Of a DNA stretch of 64,000 bases, positions 1-61,391 are shown in pieces. The stretch lies in the NCBI GenBank assembly GCA_963969365.1, contig OZ017763.1, positions 1,116,001-1,180,000 of the forward strand. The letters are read 5' to 3'. This DNA is from Asterochloris sp. CNOR1 (Eukaryota > Chlorophyta > Trebouxiophyceae > Trebouxiales > Trebouxiaceae). A model generated the notes under the pieces. That model did not search any database. It saw only the letters and a program-made list of their open reading frames with translations, and was not told where the DNA came from. Positions within the stretch are counted from its first letter, which is position 1. Every line of letters starts with the position of its first letter. Both the position numbers and the translations under genes were made by a program.

Positions 1-3000
1 TGCGCATGGGCAGCAGCAGCAATCATCACAGATGATGGCTGGGGCCTTGCATCATGCAAGATGTCGTTGTGGCTGCTCCTGATGGCTGATGGCAGCTTGG
101 CAGGGTCCACCCACCTGGCTCCTGCTGCGGTGCAGACCCGGTTGGCGGCGGGCGGCCCTCCTGGGCAGCCCTTTCGGCCTCCTGAACCTCGGCCTCTTTC
201 GCCTCAGCCTCAGTGATGGCGCGCTGGTATGCGCGCGACACCTTGCCCACCCTGCACAACACTGATGCCGATCTGCCCCAACTTGTCTCAGGTCTCCTGG
301 GTCACACCACTTGCATCGGCTGTTGTCACCAGACTAGACAGCAAGCTCCCTGCCAAGCCGAAAGGTGGGCCTGAGTTTCCTGCAACTTCTGACAGCAACA
401 CCTCTCTGGATGGCCACGTCACCTCTTAGTCCACTTGGCAGCAGCAATCCTGGCGTCCTCCGCACCGGCAATGTCCCCGCGCTGCTCGCACTGATCTGCC
501 TCGCGGGCTGCCTTGTTGGCCTGCTGGTTGGCCAGCTTAGCCTCCTCCAGCCGCTTAGCAGCAGCCTCCCGTGCTCGCCTGCAGTTGTCAGCAGCCACCT
601 CCACGAGAGCTGCTGCAGAAACGAGCTAGCTGCAACGACGTACAAAAGTTGCAAAGTGCAGTCCAGCTTGGGGTCACCTTGGCGGTTGTCATACCTGAAC
701 CCCTGTCAAGTACCAAACCTGAGTAAATGCTGCAGCCCGTTTCATTAGACAGTGAGGCATCGGTGCATCAGCCCCTGCTATGTCAATGTGACAATATTAT
801 GCATATGACATGCTGCAGGCAGCATTTGGAAAGTACTTAGCTGCCCACCTTGCCACCCTGGAAGCCTTACTAGCCTTCTGATGCCATCTGGCGGCCGTGG
901 CGCTCTTTGAAGCAGCTCCTGCCTCTTGTTGCACTGGCGGTGGTTGCTGGTCGGCTGATTCATCATAGGGCTCCACCTGCAGCGGTTGCACAAATGGAGT
1001 CCAGCACTACCACCATTGCCAGTGGCAGCCACAATTCTGTGGCCTTCCTCAGCCCATTTGCCCACTGTTGTGACAGCTGCACAGGTGCTGTCACCCTCGC
1101 ATAACAGTTGTCACATGTCAAGTTTTGCAAAACCCTTTGCCTGCAAGGGACAAGTGTCCTCCAACCCTGACTGCCCATGTGCTTTTCACCTGGAAGTCAT
1201 CCTCTGCAGTCTGATGAGTGGCAGATGCCCCGCTGGTGGCCCCACTGGTGGCTGCCGAGGTGGCCCCTGCTGGCTTGTTCATCCTGCTAGGCCCAGCATG
1301 GCTGTGATAACCCATAGCCAGCCTTCCCGCAGGCGACATCACCTATACCGCACAGCAGACATCAGCCAGCAACAGTTGCCTGGTCAAGAGTGCGCCTTAG
1401 TCGCTGAAAGCATGACTGTGTCAAGGACGCATTGTTGCTTGTCCTAGGCAGCTTGAGAACAGGCAGGCAGCCCTGCAGGAAGCAGCAGGGGTGCAGTGTA
1501 CTGGGTCCTTGACTCAGCGAGCAAAGTCAGGACAAGCAGGGCAAAGTGTAGCAGCAGCTGACAAGCTAGGCTGCGTCTCACCTCAACAGCAAAGTGCGCT
1601 CGGGGGCTGCCAGGCACAGCTACCCTAAGGTCACCCCTACCACTTCGGCTGGGTGCTAGTGTAGCTTGGGAGCCATCAGTGCCTGTCCGTGCCCCTGCTG
1701 CGTCTGTGCTGGCTGTCCCACGTGGGCTGAGCCACTCTGGGACTGTGTATGGCCCCTTGCTGCCTGCAGCAGGGCAGCTGGAATTATCCTGGGCCTGGAT
1801 GGCCCACATCTTGGTCATGCAAAAGTACCCTTCTGCAGAGCAATAGCTGCGCCACATGAGCTCTGATGCCCCCTGTCACACATGGGTCATGCGCAAGGTG
1901 CGCTTGATCAGAGAACATTGTATAGCAGACAATGTCAGCATTTTTGTCAGCATCAAGTATGGCCCAACACCTGGGCTGCTGGTTACTCGGGGGCTGCCTG
2001 CTAGTCCATCCGCCTCTGCTGCTTCTGCCTCCTTAGCAGCCGCCTCAGCATTGAGTTTCTCTGCCAGCTTGCTTGCCTGCAGGAACAACGCCAGCTGTGC
2101 TCAGGAAGCCAAAGAGGTCTGCTGCCAATGAATATACAGCTAGTGCAAGCAGATGCCGAGGACATGATGTTCATCTAACAAGCTGCTGGCAGAGTGTTTT
2201 TTGGCCGACAGGTCATGTGTTGACACAGCTCTGACATTGTGCATCTGCAGCTGGCAAATGCACAGGACAAGAACATGCAGTACATCCTGCAGTGTAGATG
2301 CCAAAAATGTATGAGCACAGTTCACAAAGTGAGTTGAAAGACACAGCAAGGAGGTGTTCCACGTCTAGCAAATGGTAGCCGACACAACACCTTGCAGGCC
2401 ACGCCAGACGCAGGCTTCAATCAATGCAGCAAAGCTACCTCCCCTCTTTGGCGCAGATCAGATGAGCTGTGCCAGTCACCTTGGCAGCCCGGGCACGCCA
2501 CTTGTCAGATGTGCTGCTGGCCTCCCCAGCTGCAGCTGTGTTGCCCTGCTTTGCAAGGCGGACGGCTTCATCCTCAGCCATAGCTGCCTGCAGCATTCAT
2601 CAAGTGCCCATGATAATCTTCAAGAATCTCTGATATGAGTTGGGTCCATGCTGCAAATGTCTGGCTTGTCGTTCTTTGTACAAAGCCATCCCAGAGAGAA
2701 CCCTGGTGAAAATGTGCAGCACTCAACAGCCCTGCCAGGGAACCAGCGTTTCAAGCAAGGCAGAAATGCTGCAGGCGGCCAACACATGTCCCAACAAACC
2801 TCACCTGTTGCAAGGCATCCTCCACTTCTACAGCCCTGGACCTGGCCTCTGCCCTGAGCTTGTCAGCCTTCCTGCGAGCCCTGACGGCTTTCTTGCGGAG
2901 CCGCTCATGCTCTGGCACCTCTGTGCTGGCACGGGGTGAGAAGTTGAGATTGCGGCGTGCAAACTCCTCCTTGACCTGGCAGCAGCAAGCCAATGGTGCA

Positions 3001-6000
3001 GAACGAAGCTGTCACAGGTACAGGGTGAGGTCCAGCAGCAGCGCTATCACAGGTACAGGCCTTGACTCACAGCAGCACAAAACGGCCGCATCGACACTAC
3101 GAGCATTGTTGGTGCTGAATCAGCTGTTGCTGAGCATCAGGCATCACGTTGCGCACCAGCTGCACTTGTTCAGCAGCTTCTGCAGCTTCTGCAGCCTTGG
3201 CATCTCCGTCGCTGCGAGCAACCTCCTCGTGCCTGCACACAACAGCAGACATCATCACAATTGCGGCATGAGAGCCTTTGCAGGGGCAGTTGTTGTCATG
3301 TTGCTGGGCTAGGTGCATCAAGGGCAGATGTTACTGTGTGACTTAGGACAAGCAGTCATTGATCTCACTTGCGGGCCTTGGCAGCTCGCTTGCTCCAGCC
3401 GGATGCAGCAGCCTGCGCCTCCTCTGCTAAACTGTCAAGTCCAGCATCAATCAAGGAGTCAGCCTCCTTGGTGGCATGTACAGCCTGCATGCAGGCGGCA
3501 TAGAAAGCTGGCATGAGTGGAAGGGGACACAACAAGGTTGTCTATTGAACGGCTGGCTTATGGCCCTTAGCTGCCCCACATCTGTGTCCATCTTGAAAGC
3601 AGTCTATAGCAAGTAATACCATCTATGCATTGCACCTGGGCATCAGCCTCCTCGGCTTCCAAGGCCTTGCCATCTGCGCTGGCATAGGCAGCGTCAGCAT
3701 GACGCTTGGCTCTCATTGATCGCCTCGCCCATTTGGCATATACCTCCTCCAGAGCGGCAGGTGCCTGCAGCCCAGAATGTGATTGCAGACCTTATGGCTG
3801 GAAGCCACCATATGCAGTGCAATTCACGTCCGTCTGCCACATAGACCCTTGGACCTAGCCGAACCCTGTTGCAGGGACAATGCTACATGTGTGTCCCTGC
3901 GTTCTGGATGCTCATTTCTGCAATGCATTCTAGCAGCAAGCAGGCATACAAGGGAGCATCTGAGCCATGTCCAGCCACAACATTGAGACAAAAAGTGCAC
4001 TCACCATCTCTGACAGTGCCTCAGTGGTTAGAGTGGCACGTCGCAAAGCCCTTCCTGGCGTGCGCGGGGATGTTGTGCGGGTGTCATCCTCTGTGAACCT
4101 GCAGAACCACAGCAAATGCTGCAACTTTTGCTTGCCAACTACCGAAAACAGCTGGCAAAGCTAACTGGGTATGCCAACATGCTGCCTTGTGGTGCTGGCC
4201 TGCAACAGGTGCCCACCCTAGAGAACAATGTTGCCTCAGCTCCATTCTTGTTTGACAGCTGCCCTTGCAACGCCTGGTATGTAAGCCTCACGCCATGAGC
4301 AACAGCTACTTGATGTTGAGACAGGAAGAAGATAGCCATGCAGGCTCGCCATATGGCGCCAGCTGCAGCTCACTTGTAGCTGTGCGGACAGCCTTACAGG
4401 GCGCACAGATTGCTCAAGTGGCTGACACTCTGATCTGCATTACATATGCCTGAAACCCATGCTGGCTGAGATTGGCACACACCTCCAAGCACAGGTTGAG
4501 ACAGATGGTATCATACCTAACAGTGTGCATGGAATCCTCCTGGCCTTCCTCGCCCAAGTCCCCCAGATCCAACGTGGTCTCAGTGGTTCCCCTAGTCTTC
4601 TGTGTGGTTTCCACTTGGACAGTGATGTCCAGGCGTGGCACCTTGCCTGCCTGATGAGACCCACCCTTTAGGGGCAACTCAGGTGTTGGCCGCGCAGCAG
4701 CTGCTGCACGCGCCACACGGCGCCACTGCTGGGCGGCTGCCACCAGGAGGACAGCCTACACAGGGCGCAGTGGCCAGGCTCAGCACAGATGTGCCAGATC
4801 CACTCATTGAACCAGCTTGACAGATCGGCACGCTTTAGCATTGGACACATGCAACAAATAGTTGGTGCATCTGCAGCGTGTGTGCATCCTTGCCAGTACA
4901 TAATGCTGAGCAACATGGTCTATCTCACAGCTTGCCAGGGTGTGCACTCACTCGTTTAAATGCCAGCCGCGCACGCGTGGCCCTCTCAGTGGGTGAAGTC
5001 AGCTGCCAAGCCACACGTGCACATGCCAGAGCAGAGGCATGTTGTTGCACCAGCTGCAGCCTCAGCTCCAGAAGGCTGTCAGCAGCAGTTGCAACCTCAT
5101 GCTGCAAGCTTGTTGTCGTGGAGTCCTGCAGTGCTGCGTCGCGGGTGTCGCCTGCCTTCCTGTGGGCTGCTGCCTGCTGCTGACTGGCCGCCAGCTGCGC
5201 CTGCAACTTCTGCAGGTTCAAGCCAGCTTGCATGACCTGCAATCAAGACAAACGCAGCTCAATCTGATAGTCCCTGGGTTCCCTCTACACCGCTTGTTGT
5301 GGCTGTGTGGCTGTGATCTGCCAGGCTGAGGCACCTTGCATGCTTGAGGTGTACAGGATAAGAGAACGGCTCTGACAGTGGTGACACCTTTTACAGAACT
5401 GCTGTCTTTCCAAGACAAAATGGCTCACATTCCATTGCAGAATCTCAGCAGCTTCTGACTGCTGCTGAACAGCTGCCCACAGCTTAAGGCGTTCCTCAGC
5501 ACCACTGCCTGCCAGCTGGTCTGCCGCTGCCTCCACAGCTGCCTGGGAGCTGGTCAGCGCCCTTGAAGCTGCGTCAGCCTGCACTCGGCAACATCATGTG
5601 CAATTCAGCGTGGGCAAGACAGCCACCACCGTAGAGCATCTGCTGGCTGGCAGGCACTCCACTGAGTGTACCAGGACTGGTGCTTTGTCATCCTTCTCCC
5701 TGCGCGTTTAACGGCAGGCAGTACGATGGCCGAACTCCTCTGCACTCACTTCTCCTGCCTCAGGGTGCTTGCTGAAAGTCCAGTCCTGCTGAGTGCCAAG
5801 GCAGCAATAGCTGCCCAAGTGCACTACGGACGCCGATGGCTTGCCTGACCGGCTGATTCCCATGGGGGTCTCGGCTGCCTGAAGCTGACCAAGCAGACCT
5901 GTTGTGGGGGCCCATGCCCTCACCATAGGATGCTGCTTCAACAGGGCGCAGCCTTGCAAGGCTGCAGTGGAGTCCCAAGCAGACCTGCTGGGAACGCTCG

Positions 6001-9000
6001 TGGCTCTCCAGCACCCGTGCAGTGGCCTCCACCTCCCCCAGATCCAGCTGCTGATCCCCTGTGGCTTGCTTGGTGGCAGCCATCTCTGCTGCCGCCCTGG
6101 CCTCTGCTGCCGCCCGCTTCAGCGCAGCGTGCTCCCGCTGCAGCTCAGCCAGATGCCGCTGCAGTGGCAGCACAGCTTGGTAGTGGACCTGCAGCCGAAA
6201 CAGTACAGCATCAGGGGCATTGGCTATCATGAGCAAGCACAAGGGACACAAGCCTGCTAACAGGGGAACTTTATGGCAGCTCACAGCAGTCTGAGCCCTT
6301 CAGGGTCACTGACCCAGTTAAAGCAAAAGGTATGTTGCATTGCCACTGTCAGGTAGGAGAAACATAGGTCTATGGTGCCATCACCTGCTGCAGCTCGTTT
6401 TGATGAAGAGCGTCCTCTTGGGCCTGCCAAGTATTGGCATCTGCCACAAGAGCACGCTCTTCCACCTTTGCATCGATATCAGCCCCTCTGCCAGCATCAG
6501 CCACAGCTGCTGCCCAAGCAGCCCCAGACCGTGCGGCTTTAGCCTTGCTGGTGCCTGCAGCCTCTTGGAGCAGGGGCTGGGCAGCTGCTAGCTGGCACTG
6601 CTGCTCAGCAGTGCAGCCCGCCGTCTGGAAGCTGCGGCCTGCCTGGTGCAAGCTGTTGGCATGGTGCTGGAGCTGCAGGCAGGGCAGGTGAACTCTGAGC
6701 TCTCTCTCTGCAATGCTTGCACGCTGTCCTGCAAGTTTGCTGCTTTAGCAGTCTCATTGTTGAGCAGGTGCATCACGGCGCAAAAAGATCTGGGCTGGCC
6801 AAAGGAGGACAGATAACACTGTCTCTGCACATATCAGCAGCCCTGCCGCACCCATTACTCCCACATCAGTGAGCCGTCGAGCTGACTCAAAAAGGCTGTG
6901 GAGATCTGCAGGGCATGCGGTGTCAGAGGGTAGCGCACCAGCTGAGCACTCCTCAGCGCGGCCTCGGCCTGGTGGCTCAGGGCTGCAGCCTCCGCACCAG
7001 CGACATCTGCCTCTTGCATAGCCTGCCTGCCCTGCTCACGAGCTATCCGAGCAGCTGCGCGGTGCGACAGGGCATCTTGAGCCTGCCCTGCAGCCTCTAA
7101 CTGCTCTGCCAGCTCGGCCTGGGCAGAACCACTGCATCATTGAGAGCAGCTTTACTTTTACAGGTCAGAGTTATTGGCCAAGAGATTGCCCAACATCAGA
7201 ATACAGGATCTGCAGTCAGCATAGCTGATAGGGCAGGCTGGCACATTCAGAGGGGCCATGCACCTGGCATTGTGGTTGGCCGACTCCTTCTGCCTGCTGC
7301 TGCTGAGCGCGGTGGCCCCTGCAGCCGACTCTAGAGCCTGGGAGGCCTCCTGACGAGCTGCTGCTGATTGCAGCATGGCCTTGACAGCAGCCTGCAGCAG
7401 CAGGTAAGGAGGTCAAGTTGCTTACCTGGAACTCTTGCTCTTCAGTTTGCCGGGCTATCTGGAGGATGCTGCACTTTGGACAGGCACGCTGTCACAGAGA
7501 ACTGCAGCTGCAGCGGGCGATGAGGTAGGGAGAGCCCAGCATGTGCCATGACCCGCCTCACTTCAACACTGACCTGCATGATGCTGTTGGCCTGCCTGTG
7601 GCACTGGGCTGCCTGCTCCAGGTAGACAAGCTTCTGGGCGGAGGCAGCCTTTCCAGAGGCGACAGCTGCCCGCTCCTCAAGCAGCTGTGCCTGTATGGCC
7701 TGGGGCACATCCAGCTGCTGGGCTGCATCCGCAAACAGCTCTGCCTCTGCCTCAGCCATCGCCGCCAGCTCTGTCAGCCTGCACTTGGACACCAGTGATT
7801 GCCCAAGGTGTGCCGGGGGGAACTACTCAGCTTTTAAGCTGCATGTGCAAACATTTGTACAGCAGCCGTGCTCTGCCTTGACTGCTGCTGTTGCTCAAGT
7901 AGTACTAGCCATGGCTGCCAGCTCTATCAGCCTCCACACAGGCACCCCACACCATGCTTGCTGTAGTCGTGCTGAGACACAGTGTGAATCTTGGTTGAGA
8001 ACATGCTGTGAAGCATCAATGCTAGCTTTTTGCTTCATTGCCTCTGTGCCAGCCAGCCGCCTGCAGGGCTCTGGGCACTGCCACCTCACTCATGCACATC
8101 TTGTACTCCTTGTGCTGGCGCAACCACTTACATCAAGCTGATCTGACGAAGCTGGAATGCTGCTACCTCACTTGTCAGCCTGCTGGGCATGCATCTTTCC
8201 CTCAGTTGAGCGGGCACCGCGACACAGCCCCTGCTCGCTATGTATACTACTGAGGAGCTGACATGCTTGCAAGCCGTGATCCTGATGACTGCCCAGCACA
8301 TGCTTTGCAACCATGATCAAACTATCTTAAACCCTCACTTGTCAGACTGCTGGGCTTGCATCTCTGCCGCCCGGCGCTCCTGCCCTGCCTGCGCCGTCAG
8401 GCTCATGGCCTGCTCGTGGAATCGAGAGGCTGCCTTGCTGTCCCCAGCCTCTTTGGCTAGAGCACCTCGCCTACTGGCAGACTCCCCATCGCTTCTGAAG
8501 TGCTCAGCAGCTGCTGCAGCCGTCGAGGCAGTCTCAAGAGCTGCTGCCAGCTCCACACGCAGCCTAGTTGCCCGCACTGCACATTCAGCTGCTTGCGCAA
8601 GCTGCTCTGCCTGTGCCTGCATCACCAGTTAGAAATGATCCAGTGTAGCTGCAGCAGCCTCATTACGCGTGCAGCACAGCCAGCAGCCCTGGCCTGGCTG
8701 CTTGCCTGCGCCTGAAACTTTGCACGTGTTTGCACTTGGGTGTAAGCGGCCCCCTTCTGCCAGGTGCTTTGACAGCTATCTGCCGCAGACTTGCAGTAGC
8801 ACAAGTACAAATGCCTTCCTGCACTGAGCCACCCAGATGCAAGCTGACTGTGCTGTCTGCTTGATGCAGCAGCCTGACCTGGGCTGCCTCCGATGTGGTG
8901 CTACTGACTGCAGCTTTCTGAAACCCATCTGCAGCTGCATTGCACAGGTTGAAGGCCTTGGCAGCCTGCTGCATGTCTGCCTGGCAGGCCTCTGCAGCCT

Positions 9001-12000
9001 GACGCAGCTTGGCAACCACAGCCTCAGCAGCGGTGAGGGCAGCCCTAGCCTCCACACCCTGCTGCTTGGCTTGTGTGGCTGTCGCAGATGCTGCTAGAGC
9101 CTCCCTTACATCCCCTGCAGCGCATGGAACACTGAGTGAAGCTATCATGGCACGAATCACTCAGGCCCTGATGATTAAAGCACTGTGGTTCACATGACAG
9201 ACCACAAAGGGCCCTCTTGCACAGGGAGGCAGGCCTCAAGACGTGTCATGGCTGCAGGTTGGCTGGCTTGCATTGGGCTGCCACACAATCAATGACACTG
9301 CCGCGCCACCCAGCAGCTGACCTGCAGTCTCCAGGGCGCGGGCTTTCTTCTGGGCCTCTGCGGCTGTCTGGGCGGCGTTGGCAGCTGCTGTGCTCTTTTG
9401 TTTGGCATTGGCTGTGGCTTCCTTCAAGGAGGTCAAGGCTGCATGTGCAAGCTCTTGCAGCTGAGCCAGCTGCTGCCGTGCAGCCTCAGCCTACAAGGCT
9501 AGCATGTTGGAGTCAGCTGCAGTGGCAAGCCAGCTGCTGCCGGGCAGCCTCAGCATGCAGGGCAGTATGCAGGATGTGAAAGGTGATGACACACACCTTC
9601 TCAAGCTGAATTACAATACCCTTATAAGCAGACAGCTGAGATTCTGCTGCCCTCAGGGTCGCCTCGTGCCCAGACATGTCCACTACACCATGTTGCTCAT
9701 GGACCTGCATACAACACTCTGCACGTCAAGGTGTTGCTTCTGGGTCTCAAGCAGCGATCAAACATCGTGATGGTGCAGGTCAGGACGCAGGGAGGGAAAG
9801 ACTTGCACACAGCTGGCGAAATGGAAGGGTCAGCGCAAGCATGCAGAAGCTGATAAAAATCTCACAAGGCAGGGTCTGTGCAGTGTTCAGAACATCATCA
9901 CAGCGGACCAGGGAATGCAGTCTTGCCTCTGCAGCCACATAAAGCTGCTCAGATGCCAGCCTGACTGCTTTGCTGGCAGCTGCAGTCTCTTGCTTGGCCT
10001 CCTGCAGGCGCTGCATGCTAATGGCAGCCTGTGCATCACGCTCTGCCACCGCAGATGCAGCGTCTGCAGCTCTCCCCCGCCTGCTTGCCTCCTGCTGCAG
10101 CTGCCTGGCAGTGGACCACAGCTCCTCTGTGCGAGCATGGGCCTGCAGCATCCAGAGAGGACTGTCAGATGACAGAGTACAATGAGTTTGCAGCTGCAGC
10201 TGCCTAGCAACAGATTGGGGCTTCTCCGCACAGGCATGAGCCTACAGCAGCCAGAACAGCATACTCTCAACTCATGCTGCACCCTGAATGGCGCAGTCGT
10301 TCTTCCAGCATCCTGTGACTCATTGAAATAAACAAACAGTCTTGAAAGCAGTGCAAGCCTGATGCACCAAATTTTGTGACAGGGCACAACTTCACCTGCA
10401 AAGCTGAAGCCTGCATCGAGGCCAAGGAGCCACTGGGTAAGGTATCTCTGCCCGTGTCAGACCGGACAGACTGTCGCAGCACAGACTGGTCTGCATTCCT
10501 GGCCCTAGCTGCTGCCAGGGAAGCCTCAGCAGCCTTGGTGTTGGCCAGTCTGTCTGCTGCTCCAAACTCTCTCTGGGCAGCAGAAGCAGTCTGGCGCGAC
10601 CTGCACAACCACAATACATGTATTGGGACATGTTTGTAACTTGGGCACCTCATGTGGTGCATGTCATGCTGATTCTGAACGGGGAGCATGTTTGCTGCAA
10701 GTGCTACAAGACTTCACCTCAGCTGCTTGCGGGTTGCTCTAAGCCACTAAGACAGAGCCACGTGTCCAGGCTGCCAACACTGCCAATCTAAGCAGCTCTG
10801 CCTCATGATGAACATGTCTGTTTTGCAGGACACCTCAGCTGCTGAAGGTGCACGTGTGCAAGGTGCTGGCAGCCCTTGAGAATGAGTTCAAGTGGGCCAA
10901 GCATTGTTTTGCACAGGAACCTCAGCTGATTCTCTGAACGCTCCAGACCCTGGACATGTTGCGCTTGCGCCATGTAAAATCACTGTGCTTTGCTCCACAA
11001 GTGCACAGTGTGTGCGCTCTGTGCGGCTGATCACCTGTGCAGCTTACTGGCAGCCTCAGAAGAGGTCAGCATGGCCTCTATCGAGGCCTGCAGCCATGCC
11101 ATCTCGTCCTCAGCACGCTGAGCCTGCTGCGCTGCCCGCTCTGCAGCTGAGGACTTGGCTGCAGCCTCAACCTCAGCCCTCAGAGCGTCCTCAGCTGCTT
11201 GCTGGGAGTGCCGGTGCAGCTCCTCTGCCGCTGCTGCCAGAGCTATGGCATCCTGCAGGCATAAGCAAGGGATGTGGGTGACAATAATGTATACAGATCA
11301 GATGGAGTTGTCTGACATGCCACACAGCATCGAGGCGCCCGCATGCATTGGCAGGTCACATCATAAAGAGGAGGAGTAGACTTTTGCCCGACGACATATG
11401 CTGCAGCATACAAATCTCTGGAACAATGTAGCCATGGCCTGGTGGACCCCAAGTGGCCGAGGGGCAAAGCCCTCGTCAATGTAAGCACTGCCCTCCACTT
11501 ACTTCACCCCTCCAGCTGAGGCTGCTTGAGTGAGCCTGTGATAGCTGAAGCATTGAGATATAGGCCTGGCACATGGACCGACAGCTGCTGACCTCAGTGC
11601 GCCCCTCCAGCTGGAGCTGCTGCACTTGGTCTGTGGCAGCTCTGGCTTCATGCTGTGCCTGGGCAGCCTGGGCTATCTTGGCCTGGGCGGCCGCCTTAGC
11701 CTGCAGACATGGAGGCCTCCCCCTGATGAGCTGCAGTCACCAAGCACCAGAGCAGCAAACAGCCTGAGTCGCCCTTGCATGTGGCCAGGCTGGGAGGCAA
11801 AGCTTCTCCAGGTGCTGGTCGGCAGGTGATGTGCACTTCCTGTGGGGTAGAGAGGCACTCACTTGCAGGCAGGGGCGCAGGATAAGCCGCCTCTGCCACC
11901 GCCCACAGAAGCTGGCTTGGGCAAGCAGACAGGCTGAAGGGTGACACGGTTGGCAGCACAAGCCCACCTCATCAGTGCAGCAAGCATACCGGGTACTTGT

Positions 12001-49615: not shown

Positions 49616-50551
49616 ACTTGCTGAAGTGTACAGTAGAGAAGCCTCCCCACACACTGTCAACTCCATGCTCAATGGCCATGGGCAGCGATTCAAGTGCATC
49701 ACTATGTTGATCAGACCGGCGTCAACTTGTTGGGAAAAACATGATATTGAAGTGCATGTGAAGGCAGGCATTCCTGAGTGTGAGCTCAGGACACCACAGG
49801 ACAGAAAAGCTGCCGGTGGGTCACATTCCAGTCAGCTGATTGGCCTATCATGATTCCGTGCTACCTGGTCACGCCATTGCAGCATGACAGCTGCCACCAT
49901 GTCTGGTGAAACCATGCATTTTTTAGTGCCTGTGCAGCACTTGGGCGGCGCAAACGATGGAGGTACAGAAGCTGTCAGAGGAGATCTGCTGCGACTGGAT
50001 GCTGCATTTCTATGGGCTTGATGCAGTGCTCTACATCCTGTGCCTGCAGGGGCCAAGCATGAGATGTTGCCGAGTAGATGAGAGGCAGCATGCTGTGAAC
50101 ACAGAGCGCCAGCGCTTCACAGGTGCCAGCATGCCTCAGCCAGGCTGATATATGCATACAGAGAATTGCATGGTCCAGGAAATCCTCGGCCCAGGCTGCA
50201 GACAGCTGGCTTGGATGCTTGCAGTAACTGAGGCCATGACTGTGCACTGGGAGGCTCAACCTGCTTAACTTAAGTTCGTGGGGTGCCTTCCGTCGCGCCT
50301 GCAGGGCTGCATTCTGTCAGTTGTGCATGTGTGCCTACCTGGTAGCGGGCCCATCATCAGGTGACACAGAGCATGATGTCTGCCACCCCCAGCAGACACG
50401 CACAGCGTGCAGCCAGTGAGTCTTGACAGACTGAATGCAGCCTGAATTGTCCTGCGGTGGACGCAGGTGCAATCTGATGCTGAGCAGCACCACCACGCAA
50501 GTTGACATTGTATCTTGACCTGGAACTCTGACATGAGCTGGTACAAAGCTG
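49616..50551. other. Region with no confident gene
   Basis: Short open frames occur on both strands. The best plus-strand stretch, around 49957-50050 (SEEICCDWMLHFYGLDAV), has a plausible acceptor but no consistent continuation. I do not call a gene here. Confidence 0.35.
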
Positions 50552-53500
50552 TTACAGTACTTTAAGGCAGGTGATGACATTCGGCCCACAGAACAATAAA
50601 AACATCAGGTCAAAGCCAACATCATGCAAGCCTGGTAACGGGGTTCTCCATATCAACTGCTGTGGGGGGCCAGTTTGCGGGTTGTGCTGCAGCATCTGTA
50701 GACTGCCGCCTGACCTGCAGACTTATGGCATCCACGTTGCGGTGATGCTGCCTGTACATGTGTCTCTCAGCGCGCTGACAGAGGCAGCACAGGTTCTCGT
50801 GAGCGAGCATCTCCAGAAAATGCCACCAGTGGCTGTGGTGCTCTGGCTGGCAATCCAGATGGTGCCTGCAGACAGCCAAGAAAGAGATATATGTCCATGA
50901 TCTGTACATCAGACTTGGGCTGTGGTGCGTCCTGATGCAGGCTTGCATGTCAAACTTATGGGGCGCTCACCTGTGGTGCAGCACCTGCAGCGCTGCAGCT
51001 GTGCTAGCCAGGATGTAGCCTGTCAAAAGCACTGCTGCGCCACTGCCAACCGCAGTGAAGATCCCAGGCATCCTGCGCATGAGACATCACACGTCACCAG
51101 GACAACAGATGCCACGACAGGCCCCACTATAGTGCAGCAAATACAGAGACATCCTGCTTTCACTGACAGCATTGATGAATAGACCAGCATTTGTCTCGAG
51201 CGGCAGCAGCATTGAGGTAGAAACAGCACAGGCACGCATCAGTAGGAGCATAGCATGTGCAGCAGCAGCAGCACGATCAATATTTGTCTGGCAAGCTCAC
51301 GGCCCTGCCAAAATCCAGATTGTGATTGGGAGGCCCGCAAAGGTGCAGAGCAGGCCCAGCAGCATGAAGAAAGTAGGCAGGGAGAAGGCGTATCTGATGA
51401 AGGTGTGCTCTGCAGGCAGCGCACAAAGGGACAACTCAGGAGCAGACAGGCCCACATTGCATGACTGGTGCCAGCCTGTTCAGCAGGCAGGGGGCGCACA
51501 CTGGCAGCTGGCCTGGCAGCAGGACGGCTGCAGCGCGCCAGCTGGTAGCAGCGCATGCAGCACTGCTACATGTGACAAAGTGCAGGAGCACCTGTGCTTA
51601 CAGGCTGCTGTGCATCAGCTGCGGTCAGCGTATACAGTACTGAAGCATTGGACTCAGTGCGGGAGCAACTGTACAGGATCAGGTGCCCCTGTGGCTGTGC
51701 AGCAGCGACACTGCTTGAGTACATGGCAGCTGTCAGGCACACAAAATGCAGCGTAGCAGCGCAAGCAGCTTCAGCTTGTAGCACCTGAGATCTCCAGCAT
51801 GGCGCTGTCAGAGATGGCCATCAGAAAAGACAACAGCACCACGCTGAGGGCAGTGGCCACCTGCACAGAGGAGCTCCCATGAGCCACTGGGCCCACGCGA
51901 CTCAGCTGGCCAATACAGACAGTGGCGGCTGCTCAGGGGAAGGAGTGAGGCCCCCTCAGTGGACAGCAGGTGGCCTTTACAGTGTACGCAGGCACTCCTC
52001 ACCTGACTGATACCACGCATTGCACTGACAAGTGTGTTCTCAGCAGGACACCCATATCGGCTGCCCTGGCAGGAAAGAGGCAGTCCTGTTGCCTGCCCAA
52101 CAAAGCAGCAGTATGCCTTTGCTGAACAGAAGGGGCGGCGCCCATCACAGCGAATGGCGGCCACAGAAGGAGGTGGTCCAACCCCAAGTGCCACCAGCCC
52201 ATGCATTAGATGCCCGGTTTCCTCACATGTTGAAGTGAGCCCAGCACCCACCCACCAGCGAGAACACTGTGGCGGCTACCCACAGAGAGAAGTGGGCGCT
52301 CCTCAGGTGCCAGCAAATCGCCTCCCTCAAGTGCAGGCGGGCCAGTGCTATGTCCTTTGGGTTGCATTCATGCAGGACCTCAGGGGCCTCAAACAGGGGT
52401 ACAGTGCCCACCAGGGCCAGCAGTGTGCCCTGCAGCAGAGGGTGGCACAGGCACTCTGGAACAGTGACCAAAGGCACACAGAGGAGAGATAGGGCAGAAC
52501 AGCTGCCAGCAGGGTCCATCCATCACAGCACCTAGTCAAGTATGTAAGACAGAGAAACTGTGCATCAGATCATCCATTGGCATGTACGCTTCTGAAGATG
52601 CTGCTATAACCTGGACCACGATCAATGCAACAGTAGTGATAGCAGGCACAATGCCAGCTGCAAAGGTGAGGGCAGTGTCAAGCAGATGTGACCAGACAAC
52701 AACTAAAGCCGCAGCAGTTGTGTCCCGTGCCAGCACGTGTTGTGTCTCAGGCCACTTGGCAGCAGGCTGCTGGCAGGAGCAAACAAGATGCACCAGCCAG
52801 GGCTGTGTGGCATGCAAGTCTGGCTGTTCTGACGGGTCATCAGGTAAGTCAGGCAGCAGGTCGTCTGTTGAGCGGCCTCACCAAAAGGATGTAGCTCTCC
52901 CAAAGATTCGTGACTGCATCCCTGCAGGTAGCAGGGCAGCGCTGCTCACCAACAATCAAGAAGCTCAAGCACTTCTGGTGCCTGCTGGTCCTGCATAGTG
53001 GCTAGCAAAGCTGCTCTCCAGACATGACTGTCGTGGCACAGCAATGCCAGAAGGAGGTACAGGCAGGGAGCACACCTGAAAGCCTTGGGGTCCATGGCAT
53101 AGTTGGCCCTCATGTAGTCAAAGAGGTGAGACCCTGAGATGAAGATGCTCAAGGGAGCAACCCAGAAGGCAGCGCACGCCTTGTCAATGCCATGACGTGC
53201 TCTCCCGAGCTTGTGCCCTGCAGCAGCATGTCATGATGGTCGCAGTCTGGCAGCGAAGCAAGCAGGAGCTCTGCAGCACTGTTTTTGGACATTTATCAGC
53301 CAGGAGCATGGTTCCTGGACACAGCAGCCCATGCGCATGTCTCTCAAACAGATTCCAGGTGAGGAGGGCATCCTTGAGTGCTACTTTGGGATTGTGCAGA
53401 TTCACCTGAGCTGTCGCTGACCCTGCCAGCATCATGGTTGGCCGCCATCTGGGTCTGCATGGCACTGGGGCTTCACCTGCGCCTTACGTTGCTCCCCTGC

Positions 53501-53626
53501 AGCTGCATCTGCACCAGAGGAAGATGCATTCTGCAGAGATGCTGAGATGCTTAGCAAATATGAGGAGGCCCACAAGGCAAGTTGACTGTGCGCGTTGACC
53601 TGGACTGAACATGAGCAGTGTATCAT
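50552..53626 (-). CDS. Polytopic membrane protein, 472 residues, family not recognised
   Basis: Complete gene. Exons 53477-53626, 53406-53454, 52950-53217, 52882-52921, 52611-52802, 52256-52429, 51785-51860, 51301-51409, 50971-51072, 50715-50865 and 50552-50659 join in phase throughout and total 1,419 nt (473 codons with stop TAA at 50552-50554). Start ATG 53624-53626. Eight or more hydrophobic segments are visible, including AFWVAPLSIFISGSHLF, LYLLLALLC, VVWSHLLDTALTFAAG, VPAITTVALIVV, WVAATVFSLVATALSVVL, LPTFFMLLGLLCTFAGL and GSGAAVLLTGYILAST. A His-rich loop (HHLDCQPEHHSHWWHF) follows the last clear helix and is followed by CCLC, a possible metal-binding patch. The middle faintly resembles the TMEM184/DUF300 solute-transporter group (DYMRANYAMDPKAF; DAVTNLWESYILL), but I would not assign it. 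One donor is GTCAGG (50714). It lies 169 bp downstream of the ARM-SAM gene on the same strand. Confidence 0.75.
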
Positions 53627-53795
53627 TCAGCAAATTCAGAGGGTAGTTGGGCAAGACCAGGTGTCATTGTCAGTTCACTAATGAGCAATGTGTTGCGCAT
53701 CATGCATGAGCTCCAGTCATTGAATGAATGTCAAGCGTCGGGCAGGTGCAGAAGGCGGGAGCACATTTCAAGTCTGTATGGCACTGAATAGTTAC

Positions 53796-56700
53796 TTAAC
53801 CCCCATTGACAGAGGCATCAATGGACTTGGCAGGGCTGGTGAGCCCCGAGTGAACAGGACTGGGTAAGCCTGATCTGGGGATGCTGATGGCTCCAGCCCC
53901 ATTTTCCATCAATGCCAGAGTGCTCATGAGCCACTTGTAGCACCGAATGAACTGGTCTGTGGTGATGATGGCAAAGTTGTCAGTCCTGAGGGCAGTCTGG
54001 AAGCCAGCTTGTACATGGCTGATCTGCTCAGCTGTGCGCCCGGAGGACTTCAGCCAGTTCTACAGGCAGGGAAGAGGGCTCTTTCGCAGTTGGCAGAGGA
54101 CCAACAAAAGGGCTCATGCATAGAAATCAGCCAGCCTTTGAGGGAGGCATGCCAGCAGGGGTGCTGAGCATCCTGAGGCCTGGGACAGATCTGCAAGCAT
54201 ACACAGACAGAGACTAAGAGTGACAGAGGTTAAAGAGATGTGGGTGCACAGAGTAGTCTGGATCCAAGGTTGTAGGAGCTGACGTGCTTGGCTCTTTGGC
54301 CCAAGAACCCTGAGTCGCTTCTGCAGGCCCATGCCTGAGCCAATGTACTCTGACAGACCATCTGGATCTGTGCATCAGGGCCTTCAATCGCGTGCAATCA
54401 AATCGCTGCGGCAGGCGAGCTCACAGCTCTGACATGCAAAGCAGATGCGAGCAGTAACGGAAGTGGGAGACTGGCGTTGCTGCAAGGGTCTGTGTTGTCA
54501 GCAATCCCGTCAGGCCAGGATAGCAGGTAAGCAGCGCTGCTGGGGTGCAGCTGCGCCGTTTATCATCCCTGACACATTGTTGAACAGGCAATGGGCATTG
54601 AGACTATGAGTGGGAGACTTCAGAACAGGGGAGCAAACATTCTGCAGCTCCACCATGTCACCACTGAGGCTAGCAGGCTATCTTGCTTGCAGCCGGACCA
54701 CGGTCACTTTTGTCCGGGCTTGCCTGCAGCTCATCTGCAGCTCCAGGTGCTATTGCACTGCAGCCTGACCACTGGCATGCAGACATGGCAGTAGCTCACC
54801 TGCAGTTCAACCACTGTAAGCACGCCCTTGCCTGGGTGGTTCATCATGGAGCTGAACAGCTGGAAGGCAGAGCGCACCAGAAGGATCTTCTTGGCCTGCA
54901 GCAGTTTGCAAGCTCAGCTCCACAGAGCAGCAGTTCACAAGCTCAGCAGCTCACAGGTTGTTGGTATCTTCAGCAGACACTTGGCACTGCATGAGCCGCT
55001 GGGGCGACTTGGCCAACACTACATTATCTCACAGGGACTTGGGCAGACTAACCTTAACTCAAAGGTGATTCAGCATTGCTGTCCCTGGCAATGCAGAGCC
55101 CACTGCCTGCTATAAGCAGGGCAGCATACCCTTCCCTGCCCTCTGGCTGCTGCTGTGGACCACAATCATGGGTACGATGGATTGTATTGAGGCAGAGGCG
55201 TGTGGCCACTTGCCTGTAGCCGGGACAGGCCCAGGTCTTCCCTGATCTCCTCATCTGAGAGCTCCAGCAGCTCTCCACCATTGACCCCATTGCTCTGCAG
55301 GCTGCTGGTATCCTGCAGCCCCAAGTCTTGGAGCAGCTGGCACACCTGATGCACAGAAAACCTGCAGAAGGCATTGAGGGGGAGCCATTGAGCACTCACC
55401 TGTGTGCCTGGAAAGGAGCACATGCTTCTTTCAAGGCATGTCAACCCAGCATCGTACGGCCGCCATATGCACTTATCATCAGCGCCTCCCATCACCTCGT
55501 ATGCTGAAGCGCAGCATCTGCCTCACTGGACAGTGCAGGCACCCCCAGACAGCACACATCTGCTCCTGGTCGGCCACTGCGGGCATGGTCATGGCAGTGC
55601 AACCCTCTGCTGTGCTAACAAGTATTGCGTAGGGCAATCAGATTATGAGGCGGCAGAAGCAAACATTGCTGAACACACTCCAAGCAGCAAGCATCCCAGG
55701 CAGCACCAGCGGCAACTGCTGCAGCCCTCCCTCTGACAAAACAATGCAGACATTATCAGTGTTCTGCGGCCCAAGGCGGAAAGGCCTCACTGTGTAAGGG
55801 GCAGCTGCTCTGGCTGGCCTGCAGCAGCCTGCTGCTCCATCTGTACCTCCTGGGTGGCCTGCTCTGCTGTGAGACATGTCAGCGCATGGGCATGACGGGA
55901 GTCAGCATATCTGCAGAATTATTGTTTCTGAATTTTGCTGTGGCCGGGTGTGGCAGCAGATTGATTTGCGTGATAGCAGGTCCAAAGTGCAGGTGGGTTT
56001 GTGGTCAACCATTTGACGCAGGACGGGTGCCTTCGAGACTCTTTGCAGGGGTTGTGGATGGTGGATGAAGCCAGTGGTCGCGTGCTAGCCCTGCGAAGAG
56101 GCTGCAATGTGCCACTCAAAGCACAAGTCATTAGAACATAACCCCCTCCCAAGAAATATTACCTGAAGGCATCTAGAATAGCATTGCGCTCCACGTTGCT
56201 GACTTGCAGCCGTTTTATTGCCTCGTCAGCCGCGAGCAAGACCTGAAGGCAAGCAGAGAGCACACTGCACAAGCAGGCCCGATTTTTTGGTATTGACATC
56301 ATTGCCCGCCACAGTAAGAAGGTCTTGGCAGTCTCAAGCAGGCAGGTGCTCTGCACCAGCTTCAAGCCTGGCGTTGGGGCACCTCAAATGCACAAGACTA
56401 GCTAGCTGCCCCAGTCAGCTGCACATCTGGCTTTGTTATTTCCATTTCCAGCATGCTTGCCGGGCCTGCAGACTTGGAGCTGCCGAGAGTTGTTGCCAAC
56501 ACCATCCCAGGCCATGGACGGTGAGCTTCCCCTCCTGCTCGCTGGGCCAATCATCAGGAGCTGCCAAATCAAGCCAGGGCATTACTCCCAGCCAGATAAT
56601 GCAATGGCAATAGACTGCTAGCTGCCCCACCTGCTCGCTGGGCCTGTCCATCATGAGCTTCATGAGGGGAGGCACCCCGCCTGCCAGCCTGATGCCTGTT

Positions 56701-59700
56701 CTATTGCTATCATCTACAGCTAGGTTTGCCCTGCAGGGCATGACAGACATGAATCATGCAAGTAATCAGACTTTCTGGTGTCCTCTGTACACAAGCGTGA
56801 GTGGACAGCGCCTTTTGACATGCTGCAGCTCTGGGCCCAAGGGGCACTGGCAGCCTCAGTGGGAGCACAAATTTTGCAAACAGATTCAGCCAGGGCTTAG
56901 ACACAGCCTGCAGTCTGCAGGCAGCCTTGAGCCTTCAGTTGCAGCTTAGTGTCATCATCGTGCCTTTGCATCCAGGTGCTAGGTTCACTGCAGCCCAATA
57001 GGGACTCACAGTGTTTTGGCTGCTATCTCGGTGATGCGTGAGGTGGAGCCCTGGTCTAGAAGCTCCACCAGGCGCTGAATGGCGCCTGCCTCCCTAATGG
57101 CGGTGAAGTAGGACTCTGCAAGGCAGGCACAATAAAGTCTAGGAACATTTGTAGTGATGGCTTGTACCTACGGCGGCAGTGTAGACACCTGCAGGGTAGC
57201 AGGCAATGGGCAACAACTTGCCCTCAGAGTCCAGCATTCAACACAAAAACAGCCCTTGTGAGGCCCAGGCACAGGACAGGTGTGCTGCTGCACTTGCATG
57301 AGGCACCCATGATGCAGGCCTCAGCCTGACTCATGCAGCATGGCTGCTTGAGTTCAGACAGCAGGAGCTGAGCCCAGCTCACACTGAACAAGCTGCTCAG
57401 CATTGCAGCTGCCTTCAGCCGATGACCCTGCTCAGCTTGAGGCACTGACACAGCGCATCTTCATCATCCTGCCCCACCAGGATCCGCCTACCTGATGTGG
57501 ATAGATGGCAGCCACTACTCCAGCAGTGCGATGTCGCCAACCATCTGCACAGTCATCAACCTCCCAGAACCCAGCCACATACATGTGTCACCCAAGACAG
57601 CAATGGCTTTGCCCGCAAGCACGACACCCTGCTCCCCTCACCTCATAACCCAGACACTCACCTGATGTGGAAAGATTGCCAAGCACTGCAGCGGCCCGCT
57701 CAAGCAGCACCATGTCGCTGGTCAGTCTCACATCCATCAGCCTGACTAGGCTGGGTAGGCTGGAGCTGCTGCTGGTCAGGGCCAATTTGTTGCTCTCATT
57801 CCCGCTGGTCAGGATACGCAGACAGTCCACAGCGCGGGCCATGGGATCTGCAGGCACCTGCAGCAGGCGACCAACCGTTTGAGCTGATGCTGCAACCTAT
57901 ACTTTGGTGGGGCTTGCAGCAAAGTGCCTGCTGCCTCTTCCAGGAACAGAGGAGTCCATTGCAGCAAAGCCATGGGGTCCCAGGCAGGCGCCAGGCACCT
58001 GTGCAGCAGGCAATGACCGTCACTGAACAACTCGTCCTGGCTGTGTGCTCACCCCCGGCTGCATGAGCCGTGCCAGAAGGGGAAACGCCCATGCCTCTCT
58101 GACAGCCGCCTTGTTGGCTTCATTGCTGACGGCAATGGCCTTGAGCGCATCTGTGGCGGCCGCTGTCAGGGCGTCGTAGGGCAGAGGCTCCAGCATCTTC
58201 ACCAGCACAGGGATGGCATACTGTTCCCTGCATTCAGCAAATTGATGGGTGTCAAGTTCAGATGCTGTCAACAGACAGTGCTGCAGCATGTTGGTCAGAA
58301 CGGCATGCCCCTGAAATATGATGATGCTCTCTGCAGGGCAGTGGATGCAGTTCAAGCATTTAGTGGGGCCACTGAGAGGCTCTTGGCATTCAATTAATGC
58401 CTTCAGAGAAGAGATGCTGCCTTGTTGTGCCCTGCATCATTTGGCTTGCTGAGGACTTGAAGCCTCTTGGCATGCTCAACAGCAGTGCTGGGGTTGGTGG
58501 CAGCCATGCTGTTGAGCATGTCAGATCAGAAGGCGGGAGCCCTTTGGCTTGCAGCACTGTCCCTTGCAGCTCGCTGACATGCGCTGACTGTATGATGCAA
58601 GCAGCACCTCACACAGCTTTGCAGCCCAATGCCAGGTGCGGCACCTGTCTCACCCAGCAGCACCACCAAATGCGGGGACCAACAGTCTCTAACGCAGCTG
58701 TACAATGCCATCAATGCTATCCTCACCTGACATAATCCTGATTCATCTCGTTGTTGATGGCCAGCGCCCCTATAGCCAGCAGGCAGGCCTCCTTTGTGGG
58801 CTTGTTCCCCGTCCCCAGCAGCTGCAGCATGGCCTTCAGGGCCCCGCTGTCCCGAATTTTGTCTTTGCCAACGTCGCTGCGAGCCATGTGCCCCAGAAGG
58901 GACGCCGTCAGCTTCTGCGCCTCCTGCAGGCCGGCACGCCCTCCATCAACTTCTTTGCTTGCCCTCGCCATGTGGTTGCGATGTCTGCTTGCGCCTCCTG
59001 GTGGTGCTGCACAGCTTGTGCCTCACAAAGAGAGATGGTGAACTGTTGCAACGACTGCAGGTATACATGCTCCTGGTCGAGGCCCCTCCACATTGGGGCC
59101 CATCATGCACCCTAGAAAGGAGGCCATGAGCTGCTGTGCCACCTGCAGGCACGCACCGCTGTTAATGATGAGTTTCAACTGCGTATCCCTGCACCGTTGC
59201 AAGCTCTGGTTCCCCAGCAGGGACACTGTCAGATGCTACACCGCCACACACTGTGCAGCATGTGTCAGTGCCACTCTGTACCCTGGCCACTTTTGAGTGC
59301 CGTCTATAACACATGCTATGTATGTATCACACTCCCAGCTGCTGCTGCCCCTGCAGCCCAATGGGTCTTGCTTCGACATTAGGGTCAGCCTGCAGCTCCA
59401 GCAGTTTGGGCATCTCATCAGCACGTCAGTGTCTGCAGCAAAAGTTCAGTGCTGGCCACCAGCAACGCTATCCAAAAGCCCTGCCCCAAGATGCATTGGG
59501 CAGCCTTGCAGCTCCAGCAGCTCCCCTGTCGGCAGCACCTTCAGCACCCTGCAATCGACTGCACCTGCGGCTTTCAGAGGCAGGAACCACAACCCAGTGG
59601 CCACCAACACTGCTCACCTGGTCCTCCCGCAGCTCCAGCAGTTTGGGGCAGCTGGACAGCGCTCCCGTCTGCAGCATCTGGACGCTGCTGGCCTCGTCCA

Positions 59701-61391
59701 GTGCCAGGGCTTGCAGGGCATGTAGCACACAGTGGAGCAGGTCCTGGTGGAGCTCCTTGCCGTGTCTCAGGAGGCTCGAAAAAGACGTGATTCCACCAGC
59801 CTCCCTGCAGGCAGGCACCATCACTGTTTCATATACAGGGCGGTACATATCTGTGAAGGCTCAAGCAACCTGGACCCTGACATGATTCTTGCAGCCACAT
59901 GGCAGCAGTATGATTTCATACCCGGCGGGATAGGCCCAGTGAAGGCTCAAGCAGGCTACAAAAGGATGTAATGCCCCAGCTTCCCTGCAGGCAGTGCATG
60001 GAGCAGCCCCTTGTCATGCATAAGCAGGCCCACTGCCTCCCACCTCCCTGCAGGCAATTAACAGCATCAAGACACACAGCGCAGTGTGATGACAGAAGTG
60101 GAGGCTCAAGCAGGCTTGGAAAGAACGTGATCCCACCAGCCTGCCTGCAGGCAGTTGACAGCGTCACAATATGCAGAAAGGGCGGTGCAGCAGTAGTGAG
60201 TGGAGGCTCAAACAGGCCTGAAAAGGATCCCGGCAGCCGGAAAGCATGACTATAACACACAGGGGCAGTGCAATACTGGAGAGCTAAGGTTCAAGCGCCA
60301 TTAGCAAAAGTGTTGTTCTTCCTCCTTGTGGACAACCAGGCCTGTCAGTGTGAACTGCCAGGAGAACCACAAGGTGCCCAGGCACCCAAGCAGATGCGCA
60401 CATGCTTGCAAAAAAGTGTTGAGCAGCCCAAGTGCTCCTGAGCTTTGCTGCATTCCGTAGACAGCACATAGGCAAATTGCCTGAAGAGCCCGCAACAGAC
60501 CTGAGCAGCACCTGGATGGGCCCTATGCCTGCCAGCAGACATGGAGCCTGGACAGCACTGTTAGCAGAGCGGTCCAGGCACCGACACGCTCCCCGTGCTA
60601 CAGCAAGCTGGAACAACCATGGTTTGCCATTTCATCTGACCAGCACCTGGAGATGCTGCCTGACAGCACCACAATTGCCCTGGCTGCACTCAGCATGACC
60701 TGCTTGGCAGCATTGTCAAGGACTCCGTCCAAACCTCTATGGAAAAACAGAGAAAATCGTGCATAGCCAACTCACCTGATCAGCATCCGATTTGGGGCGC
60801 TGCCTGCCAGCACTGATATTGCCCTGGCTGCACTCAGCGTGAGCTGCTTGGCAGGGCTGTCCAGCAGCCCCACCAGCCCGGGAATAGCCCCACTCTCCCC
60901 AAATGCTAAGCTGTACTCCTCGCTCTGCAGGCTCAATGCCCTGCACAGCATGCTTCATGTTTGAGTCGGGTACTCTGCTGACAGGCTGGGGCACCTATGC
61001 AGGACATGTTGCCTCTGCATGGTGGACCAAGTCATTCAACATGCCATGGGCCTGCAGATGCCTGCAATGCTCTGCAGGGCACGAGCTCTGCTGAGCGCAC
61101 TGGCCACTGTGCTGAGACGTGGCGCTTGAGGGGCCTCCTAGCAGTTGCGAGGGGCAACATCAGCAATGTAGCTAAACTGAGCACAGCACAAAGGGCTTGC
61201 TCTGAGGATATATTCAGAGCTGCAGTTGCAATGATGCACGCAGAGGGTGACTGGCAAGATCAAAATTGCACAAAACCATTCTGTAGACAGTGACCTCCTT
61301 ACTTTATCTGCTCTGCAGTAATTTCTTGCTCAGCCTCATCGCCTGAGCGCAGTTGCCGCAGCAACTGCGCCACAATGTCTTCGTCAATCAT
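53796..61391 (-). CDS. Armadillo-repeat protein with C-terminal SAM domain, 642 residues
   Basis: Complete gene. Exons 61303-61391, 60776-60922, 59618-59804, 58727-58923, 58053-58227, 57662-57857, 57010-57115, 56631-56730, 56163-56242, 55791-55866, 55214-55345, 54800-54895, 54284-54367 and 53796-54059 join in phase and total 1,929 nt. Start MIDEDIVAQLLRQLRSG. Armadillo repeats fill about residues 30-430. They show the G-A/G-hxxLVxLL and N-E/S-N-K pattern, e.g. ESGAIPGLVGLLDS, IREAGAIQRLVELLDQG, VSNEANKAAVREA, TSGNESNKLAL and LAGGVPPLMKLMMD. Residues about 452-515 form a SAM domain: VCQLLQDLGLQ, ELLELSDEEIREDLGL and AKKILLVRSAF (helix 5). The tail has a degenerate EF-hand-like stretch and ends in a Ser/Pro-rich segment. 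The SAM exon 55214-55345 uses a GC donor (GCAAGT). The 55791-55866 frame is set by phase only. ARM-SAM order recalls SARM1, but no TIR domain is present. Likely a protein-protein scaffold. Confidence 0.82.
56520..56600. repeat. Intronic copy of the end of ARM exon 56631-56730
   Basis: CCTGCTCGCTGGGCC at about 56535 repeats CCTGCTCGCTGGGCCTG at about 56631, which is the exon's 3' end with its donor. The similarity then fades into CATCA/GAGCTTC-like pieces. Confidence 0.5.
59085..59158. repeat. Intronic copy of the start of ARM exon 58727-58923
   Basis: Minus-strand translation of the copy reads VAQQLMASFLGCMMGPNV, against EAQKLTASLLGHMARSDV at the exon start. The acceptor-like CTGCAG is conserved in the copy. 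Confidence 0.7.
59853..60233. repeat. Intronic degraded copies of the start of exon 59618-59804
   Basis: Diverged copies of 59765-59814 (exon start plus its acceptor) lie in the upstream intron at 59939-59994 and 60099-60154, with shorter pieces at 59853-59875 and 60200-60233. In minus-strand translation the exon start reads EAGGITSFSSLL. Two copies read QAGGITFFPSLLEPP and GSWGITSFCSLLEPS, each again preceded by a TGCAG-type acceptor. Confidence 0.75.
60657..60722. repeat. Intronic copy of the middle of ARM exon 60776-60922
   Basis: The stretch closely matches 60798-60865: both contain GCCCTGGCTGCACTCAGC and a following TGCTTGGCAG. The copy lies downstream of the exon in transcript terms and has lost the reading frame. 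Confidence 0.7.

Follow-up and report, generated by a model that had tools for sequence, protein, structure and literature searches.

Copies of exon edges beside splice junctions in the green alga Asterochloris sp. CNOR1, and their probable origin in local tandem duplication

Tandem duplications across splice junctions have so far been treated as a way in which new introns arise, and from few cases, at least in the available text of the papers concerned (PMC3443670, PMC4974935, PMC2891723). One tandem duplication that crosses an intron-exon boundary has been described in the potato RdRp gene (Ma, Lan and Niu 2016, PMC4974935). The AGGT model of intron gain by tandem genomic duplication predicts, as far as the accessible sections of its source go, that the lag between the copies equals the intron length and that, within one intron, the flanks of donor and acceptor match; the same source also covers how latent splice sites become activated (PMC3443670). 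In Drosophila, duplication of exonic sequence has been proposed as the origin of seven introns, whose surroundings show, according to the authors, no conservation in support (Lehmann et al. 2010, PMC2891723). For the stwintrons of Lipomyces, the excerpts propose that duplication of a functional donor (4-7 nt) within an existing intron leads to nested introns (PMC7138796). Here we analyze a stretch of 64,000 nucleotides (positions 1116001-1180000) of contig OZ017763.1 of Asterochloris sp. CNOR1 (hereafter the window), together with DNA from other contigs of this alga, for "echoes", i.e. diverged copies of the start or end of an exon that lie beyond its splice site. These echoes are genuine and widespread, and they have a clear polarity: roughly one in nine exon edges has a copy on its outer side. 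Among the matches listed in a search of open papers, there was no report of polarised exon-edge echoes across a genome.

Echoes lie on the outer side of exon edges

The DNA analysed comprises 244 kb, namely the 64-kb window on contig C18 and 18 stretches of 10 kb (loci L003-L020), one per contig (C1-C18) and each starting at position 500001; the genome has 56.4 Mb in 21 contigs and a G+C content of about 57%. Gene models were made without transcripts by a self-training gene finder written for this analysis, which predicted 854 introns (median 137 bp) and learned the consensus CAG/GTGAGT ... CTGCAG/G. Because the gene finder over-splits and merges genes, edges were limited to those of confident exons (coding score of at least 12, length of at least 45), which gave 228 acceptors and 225 donors. 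Edges near locus ends were dropped, leaving 221 of each type for the test. Among five predicted proteins from the other loci, four have Pfam matches (WDR19, AMP-binding, Plus-3, amino-acid transporter); matches in the window are above cut-offs for ARM repeats and a Dpy-30 motif, and below them for EFCAB10, SET and DUF3560.

As query we used the 50 exon bases beside a predicted splice site, excluding the splice motif, and as target the 310 bp of intron-side flank at 20-330 bp from the junction, whatever this flank contained and not just called intron. At a score of at least 48, copies were found for 26/221 exon starts and 25/221 exon ends, compared with 0.1% each in shuffled flanks and 0 for reversed queries (Mann-Whitney p values of 3.4e-10 for exon starts and 1.5e-5 for exon ends). 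The effect is present in the window (9/72 starts and 8/72 ends, versus 0.8% and 0.1% in the flanks of other edges) and in the 18 other loci (17/149 and 17/149, versus 0.1% and 0.0%). The preliminary description of the window, which proposed the echoes from its letters, had named the comparison of introns with neighbouring and with other exons as decisive, and the proposal has come through it. On the wrong side, matches were found for only 2/221 exon starts (against the downstream flank) and 0/221 exon ends (against the upstream flank).

The same polarity is seen in the coverage of exons by local copies, which was counted from ungapped pairs that had passed entropy filters, with exon-exon pairs taken out. 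Ungapped coverage peaks at the junction and is back at its baseline some 60 bp inside the exon; it reaches 13.8% at exon starts and 9.5% at exon ends, versus 0.7% and 0.0% in the wrong direction. With a gapped detector, again with exon-exon pairs taken out, 17.2% of the first and 12.0% of the last 15-bp exon bins are covered, compared with 1.0% and 0.0% in the wrong direction. Coverage and exon-edge tests both retain the effect when the window is left out. Counting the single best echo per junction, the gapped detector yields 69 junction echoes (41 acceptor and 28 donor echoes), spread over 16 of the 19 loci. At 16 junctions a second echo is present, and 10 of the 218 exons that could be tested are flanked by echoes at both edges. 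Lags have a median of 132 bp (quartiles 101 and 261) and are distributed nearly evenly modulo 3. The duplicated unit crosses the intron-exon boundary: all 69 alignments cover the junction, with a median aligned length of 44 bp on the exon side and 14 bp on the intron side, and 26 align over at least 20 columns on both sides.

According to the gene models, 31 of the 69 echoes lie wholly within the predicted intron next to the exon, weak exons are called at or next to a further 32, five fall within a confident exon and one has a confident exon in between. The original idea of intronic copies of a neighbouring exon needs correction in that some pairs are exon-exon. Introns beside echoes are slightly longer than others (median 192 versus 166), which is not evidence, since an echo needs room. 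A random relocation of 162 ungapped, entropy-filtered pairs gave a modest excess at junctions (90 at any junction versus 68.2 expected, standard deviation 6.0; 33 with both copies at junctions versus 11.5, standard deviation 3.0) and was superseded by the polarity-aware tests, adopted since the exon calls of the gene finder include some echoes.

Short local copies are in excess generally, and they are direct. At lags of 51-300 bp, the 244 kb contain 145 ungapped direct matches with a score of at least 18 but only 2 inverted ones; the direct matches amount to 0.58 per lag, versus 0.011 at lags of 2001-4000, a figure not corrected for the smaller number of long-lag positions in 10-kb loci. Normalised per position, lags of 51-100 and of 2001-4000 give 4.38 versus 0.13 in the window and 3.69 versus 0.03 in the other loci. 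A gapped aligner found 159 alignments at lags of 40-400 and 9 in the equally wide band of 3000-3360. Among 172 local alignments, identity is at least 0.90 in 7 and between 0.65 and 0.80 in 116, so that the suggestion of an ongoing process, made in the preliminary description, draws little strength from these data. The density of local duplications drops with exon fraction (rho -0.69, p 0.0014, 18 loci) and showed no correlation with intron count in the same loci (rho 0.13, p 0.61).

The echoes look like true homologues that decay without coding or splice-site constraint. Mismatches between exon and echo occur at rates of 0.204, 0.190 and 0.257 in the three codon positions, in-frame stops are found in 7/61 echoes versus 1/102 far exon-exon pairs, and transitions make up 243/467 changes in echoes versus 246/842 in far pairs. 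Judging by stops and codon positions, it is unlikely that echoes are coding as a rule. An intact AG is present in 26/41 acceptor echoes (0.63) and an intact GT in 16/27 donor echoes (0.59; one of the 28 could not be mapped at this position), while other exon dinucleotides are kept at 0.58. Inclusion of the splice site, said earlier to be usual, therefore holds to a moderate degree, and the 41 acceptor and 27 donor echoes show no sign of selection that keeps or destroys splice sites. In the 26/69 echoes alignable over at least 20 columns on both sides, mismatch is 0.291 on the intron side and 0.209 on the exon side, the difference that constraint on the exon copy alone would produce.

A predicted RPN11 gene on the minus strand of L010 allows a comparison with known proteins. 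Its best match is PDB entry 8amz (E value 8.5e-99), which we take to be from spinach, and protein homology confirms the exon GRAGVPMEV...KQVG, both ends of which have echoes. The copy of the exon start, with acceptor, lies 261 bp upstream (L010 2676-2725, 80% identity), and that of the exon end, with donor, 291 bp downstream (L010 1984-2026, 84%). On the donor side, the solved homologue runs straight from this exon into RPEMVVGWYH without inserted residues, and the intervening sequence, including the echo, is therefore outside the protein; the gene finder had placed in this intron a false segment that is absent from homologues. The acceptor-side echo is less secure, because the upstream exon was not identified by homology. 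No stray eukaryotic relatives of RPN11 were confirmed in viral contigs, and for the AMP-binding gene the matches to solved structures did not reach the region of the echo in question, one of several in this gene.

Origin of the echoes

Together, our data suggest, with a probability of roughly two in three, that the echoes stem from direct, tandem-type duplication across one splice site, which would leave the protein unchanged, lengthen the intron and add a spare junction that decays. Short direct duplications, mostly with lags of 50-300 bp, would arise widely in the genome and, to judge by the young cases that are readable, would be tandem at birth. A duplication across a single splice site would be neutral for the protein if splicing keeps using the copy joined to the remaining exon, i.e. 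the last acceptor or the first donor, which would leave the mRNA unchanged. The intron would then carry a spare junction (its own end with the start of the exon, or the end of the exon with its own start) that is non-coding and decays under no visible constraint. Since its partner copy is maintained by the exon, this spare junction should remain recognisable beyond the point at which a duplication confined to intron sequence has faded. Such a process would lengthen existing introns and create none.

Several observations speak for this model. Tandem-type duplication is indicated by the occurrence of direct copies only; the splice motif travels with the copies; and a forward simulation of the neutral rule, with the last acceptor or first donor in use, yields the observed polarity. 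The lag-dependent excess of direct repeats, the signs of non-coding decay and the lower density of local duplications where the exon fraction is high fit as well. Several young or otherwise clear copies are adjacent whole units: L009 6918-7157 (119 bp, 88%), L014 545-748 (68 bp, repeated), L013 6184-6987 (81%), L004 7127-7253, L010 1148-1339 and 28271-28389 in the window. For older, spaced copies a tandem birth is presumed. The presumed neutrality for the protein draws its homology support from the one RPN11 exon, and which splice sites are used at echo-bearing exons is taken from the predicted models. The interpretation given in the preliminary description is partly supported: tandem duplication across splice sites is the best reading of direct orientation, polarity, carried motif and adjacent young copies, and its second half, intron gain, fares badly, as discussed below.

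A number of findings weigh against this model. A spacer of at least 25 bp separates the copies in 50/69 junction echoes (it is shorter in 19/69), whereas only 20-23% are spaced in simulations of tandem duplication. The intronic flanks of 49 testable echoes are alike only at chance level (mean z -0.03), where simulated tandem echoes have z values of 1.1-2.7. Exon-containing pairs at 80-90% identity are adjacent in 3/29 cases, versus 98/164 and 59/127 in simulations, and 4 of the 7 alignments with at least 0.90 identity are spaced. The ratio of exon-edge to deep-intron coverage is 4.7 and 2.8 for ungapped and 3.5 and 2.4 for gapped alignments, with about 0.5-0.7 in simulations, which means that uniform tandem duplication under-predicts echoes at exon edges. 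Just 31/69 echoes lie wholly inside the adjacent predicted intron, and in 36/69 the lag is greater than the length of the predicted intron, owing to weak exons called in between. Finally, the share of mismatches at third positions (0.39 in echoes, 0.42 in far exon-exon pairs) does not by itself separate the two groups, so that the stops are the main basis for reading the echoes as non-coding. These misfits could each owe something to a burst in the past with rapid turnover of introns, to original units that were shorter, or to copying focused on junctions.

The last of these could also be the whole explanation. A process tied to splice junctions or to transcription would place a short direct copy, with a median of 14 bp of intron and 44 bp of exon, 80-260 bp outward and non-adjacent from birth. 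It would account for the coverage peak at the junction in excess of uniform duplication, for the 50/69 spacers and the lack of flank similarity, for the extents of the copies, and for the RPN11 exon with copies of both its ends. We nevertheless consider it unlikely, as tandem units lying side by side are plainly seen in several young cases and as purely intronic pairs at 80-90% identity are mostly spaced too (12/16), so that spacing is not special to exon edges. Moreover, we know of no mechanism that yields spaced junction copies in direct orientation only. If it were true, introns would be seeded with decaying pseudo-junctions several-fold above the level of uniform tandem duplication and would grow from their ends, with a steady supply of decoy or alternative splice sites.

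It is quite improbable that tandem exon duplication gave rise to the echoes, which would then be repeated or alternative exons, either functional or lately lost. The five echoes in confident exons and two pairs in an ARM-repeat gene of the window (58885/59104 and 60655/60799) that are possibly coding repeats would fit. The copies are, however, partial and one-sided, while duplication of whole exons predicts no polarity, and 7/61 echoes contain stops. Whole-exon copies with both splice sites on either side were not what the exon-edge test found: matches are on the outer side (26/221 and 25/221) and hardly ever on the wrong one (2/221 and 0/221).

Intron gain, the consequence proposed in the preliminary description, would require that two junction copies made by a boundary or AGGT-type tandem duplication bound a new intron, whether a mini-exon lies between them or not. 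Work by Hellsten et al. (2011) is reportedly linked to the AGGT model. The gene finder often sets weak exons at echoes (32/69), and an in-register scan of 796 introns found 5 at a score of at least 22 versus 0.2 expected, and 9 at 20 or more versus 3.8 expected. A boundary-crossing case is described for potato (PMC4974935). However, the lag equals the predicted intron length within 5 bp in only 1/69 echoes, and the in-register excess borders weak exon calls: all six introns listed at a score of at least 21 adjoin one, and five of the six adjoin a predicted exon of 0-15 bp that was placed in the echo. Homologues of RPN11 likewise lack inserted residues on its donor side. We therefore regard intron gain as a highly improbable source of the echoes.

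Chance or shared composition, i.e. a resemblance of Ala/Gln-rich coiled-coil exons to CAG/TGCAG-rich introns, fits the low-complexity coiled coil of the main gene in the window and the existence of 102 far-lag exon-exon matches, and may account for some low-identity alignments in that gene, but as a general cause it is refuted by the shuffled, reversed, wrong-side, far-lag and inverted controls as well as by the lag dependence, the transition excess and the effect outside the window, and its probability is negligible. Templated insertion of the polymerase-theta type gives direct and inverted copies and is ruled out by the 145 direct versus 2 inverted matches at 51-300 bp. Introner elements leave similar intron copies dispersed genome-wide; a single echo region searched against the genome, with a search that skips common words, matched just itself.

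Echo positions in the window and further observations

All features of the window described in this paragraph lie on the minus strand. A predicted coiled-coil gene at 1-33299, with 115 predicted exons and cut at the window start, contains 25 of the 27 junction echoes of the window. Exon starts with copies are found at 7754-7793 (junction 7778; copy 7907-7946, lag 153, 80%), 9464-9499 (junction 9490; copy 9528-9563, lag 64, 89%; gapped alignment 9434-9574, 81%), 10094-10156 (junction 10142; copy 10193-10255, lag 99, 71%), 12577-12610 (junction 12612; two copies, 12739-12772 and 12810-12842) and 32620-32659 (junction 32651; copy 32726-32765, lag 106, 75%). A further acceptor echo at 22626-22973 (junction 22658) has ungapped copies at 22626-22680 and 22777-22831 (lag 151) and a gapped alignment with lag 141 and 64% identity. 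Exon ends with copies are located at 8333-8368, including the donor (junction 8338; copy 8166-8201, lag 167, 89%), 11593-11641 (junction 11592; copy 11498-11546, lag 95, 71%) and 27998-28051, again including the donor (junction 28002; copies 27902-27955, lag 96, and 27780-27812). A repeat search of the window also found 8166/8333, 9464/9528, 10094/10193, 11498/11593 and 27902/27998. The pair at 28271-28387, previously counted as near-identical among the copies of exon edges, is no echo: it consists of two tandem copies of a 58-bp unit inside an intron (28271-28389). The other two junction echoes on confident exons belong to a predicted ARM-repeat gene at 50270-64000 (Pfam PF00514, E value 1.3e-18). 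Its exon start 58885-58937 (junction 58923) has a copy at 59104-59156 (lag 219, 77%); both may be coding, and one analysis classed them as exon-exon. The pair 60655-60731 and 60799-60875 (lag 144, 79%) is possibly a repeated coding exon instead of an echo. Echoes had been claimed for three genes, of which these two predicted genes bear the claim out, and the gene at 34738-47690 has repeats solely beside weaker exon calls.

This long predicted gene (34738-47690, minus strand) has Ala/Gln-rich stretches and a weak SET match (E value 5.8e-4, below the Pfam cut-off). A small gene on the plus strand (33586-34550) encodes a Dpy-30/RIIa-type motif, with an EFCAB10 match below the cut-off. In the locus with the RPN11 gene, a homologue of WDR19/IFT144 is encoded at 2739-10000 (plus strand), which suggests that a flagellated stage is retained.

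The density of local duplications is uneven. At a score of at least 60, the 18 loci have 0-12 per 10 kb (dispersion index 2.1), with none in L003 and L015, two in L008, 10 in L017 and 12 in L020. L015 has long exons and a lower G+C content (0.523). In called introns, diverged direct repeats form irregular arrays with multiple copies (L012:4110-4556, L014:1982-2348, L014:3245-3721), which resemble collapsed nested tandem duplications. CpG is strongly depleted in the window and in L003-L020 (observed/expected 0.31-0.45), which may underlie the richness in CAG, CTG and TGCA and would fit heavy DNA methylation.

Comparison with known systems

Echo traces at about one in nine exon edges point to growth of existing introns and to a supply of spare splice sites. 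As echoes can be counted, and dated by their divergence, the evolution of intron length and the birth of alternative splice sites become measurable in a single genome. They are also a warning for gene finders, as the weak exons called at or beside 32/69 echoes and the false segment in the RPN11 gene illustrate. Gao and Lynch (2009) reportedly described frequent duplication of segments within genes as internal gene duplication; the copying of segments within genes is shared with our case, and what was measured here are polarised, partial copies of exon edges that decay in introns.

The systems with cited descriptions are compared as far as the available portions of these papers allow. As in the AGGT model, the echoes involve short tandem duplications within genes, with splice signals on the copies; unlike in that model, a lag equal to the intron length is found in 1/69 (PMC3443670). 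The novel introns of Drosophila share duplicated exon borders and proto-splice sites with our case, but the Asterochloris copies can be seen directly and are found next to junctions that already exist (PMC2891723). Duplication of a donor within an existing intron is common to the Lipomyces stwintrons and to the donor echoes, the duplicated unit being 4-7 nt there and tens of bp including exon sequence here (PMC7138796). In potato RdRp, too, a tandem duplication runs across the boundary of intron and exon and includes the 3' splice signals; that single case comes with a new intron, whereas in Asterochloris about 11% of the tested edges are affected, the partial copies occur at either end of exons, and nothing points to intron gain (PMC4974935).

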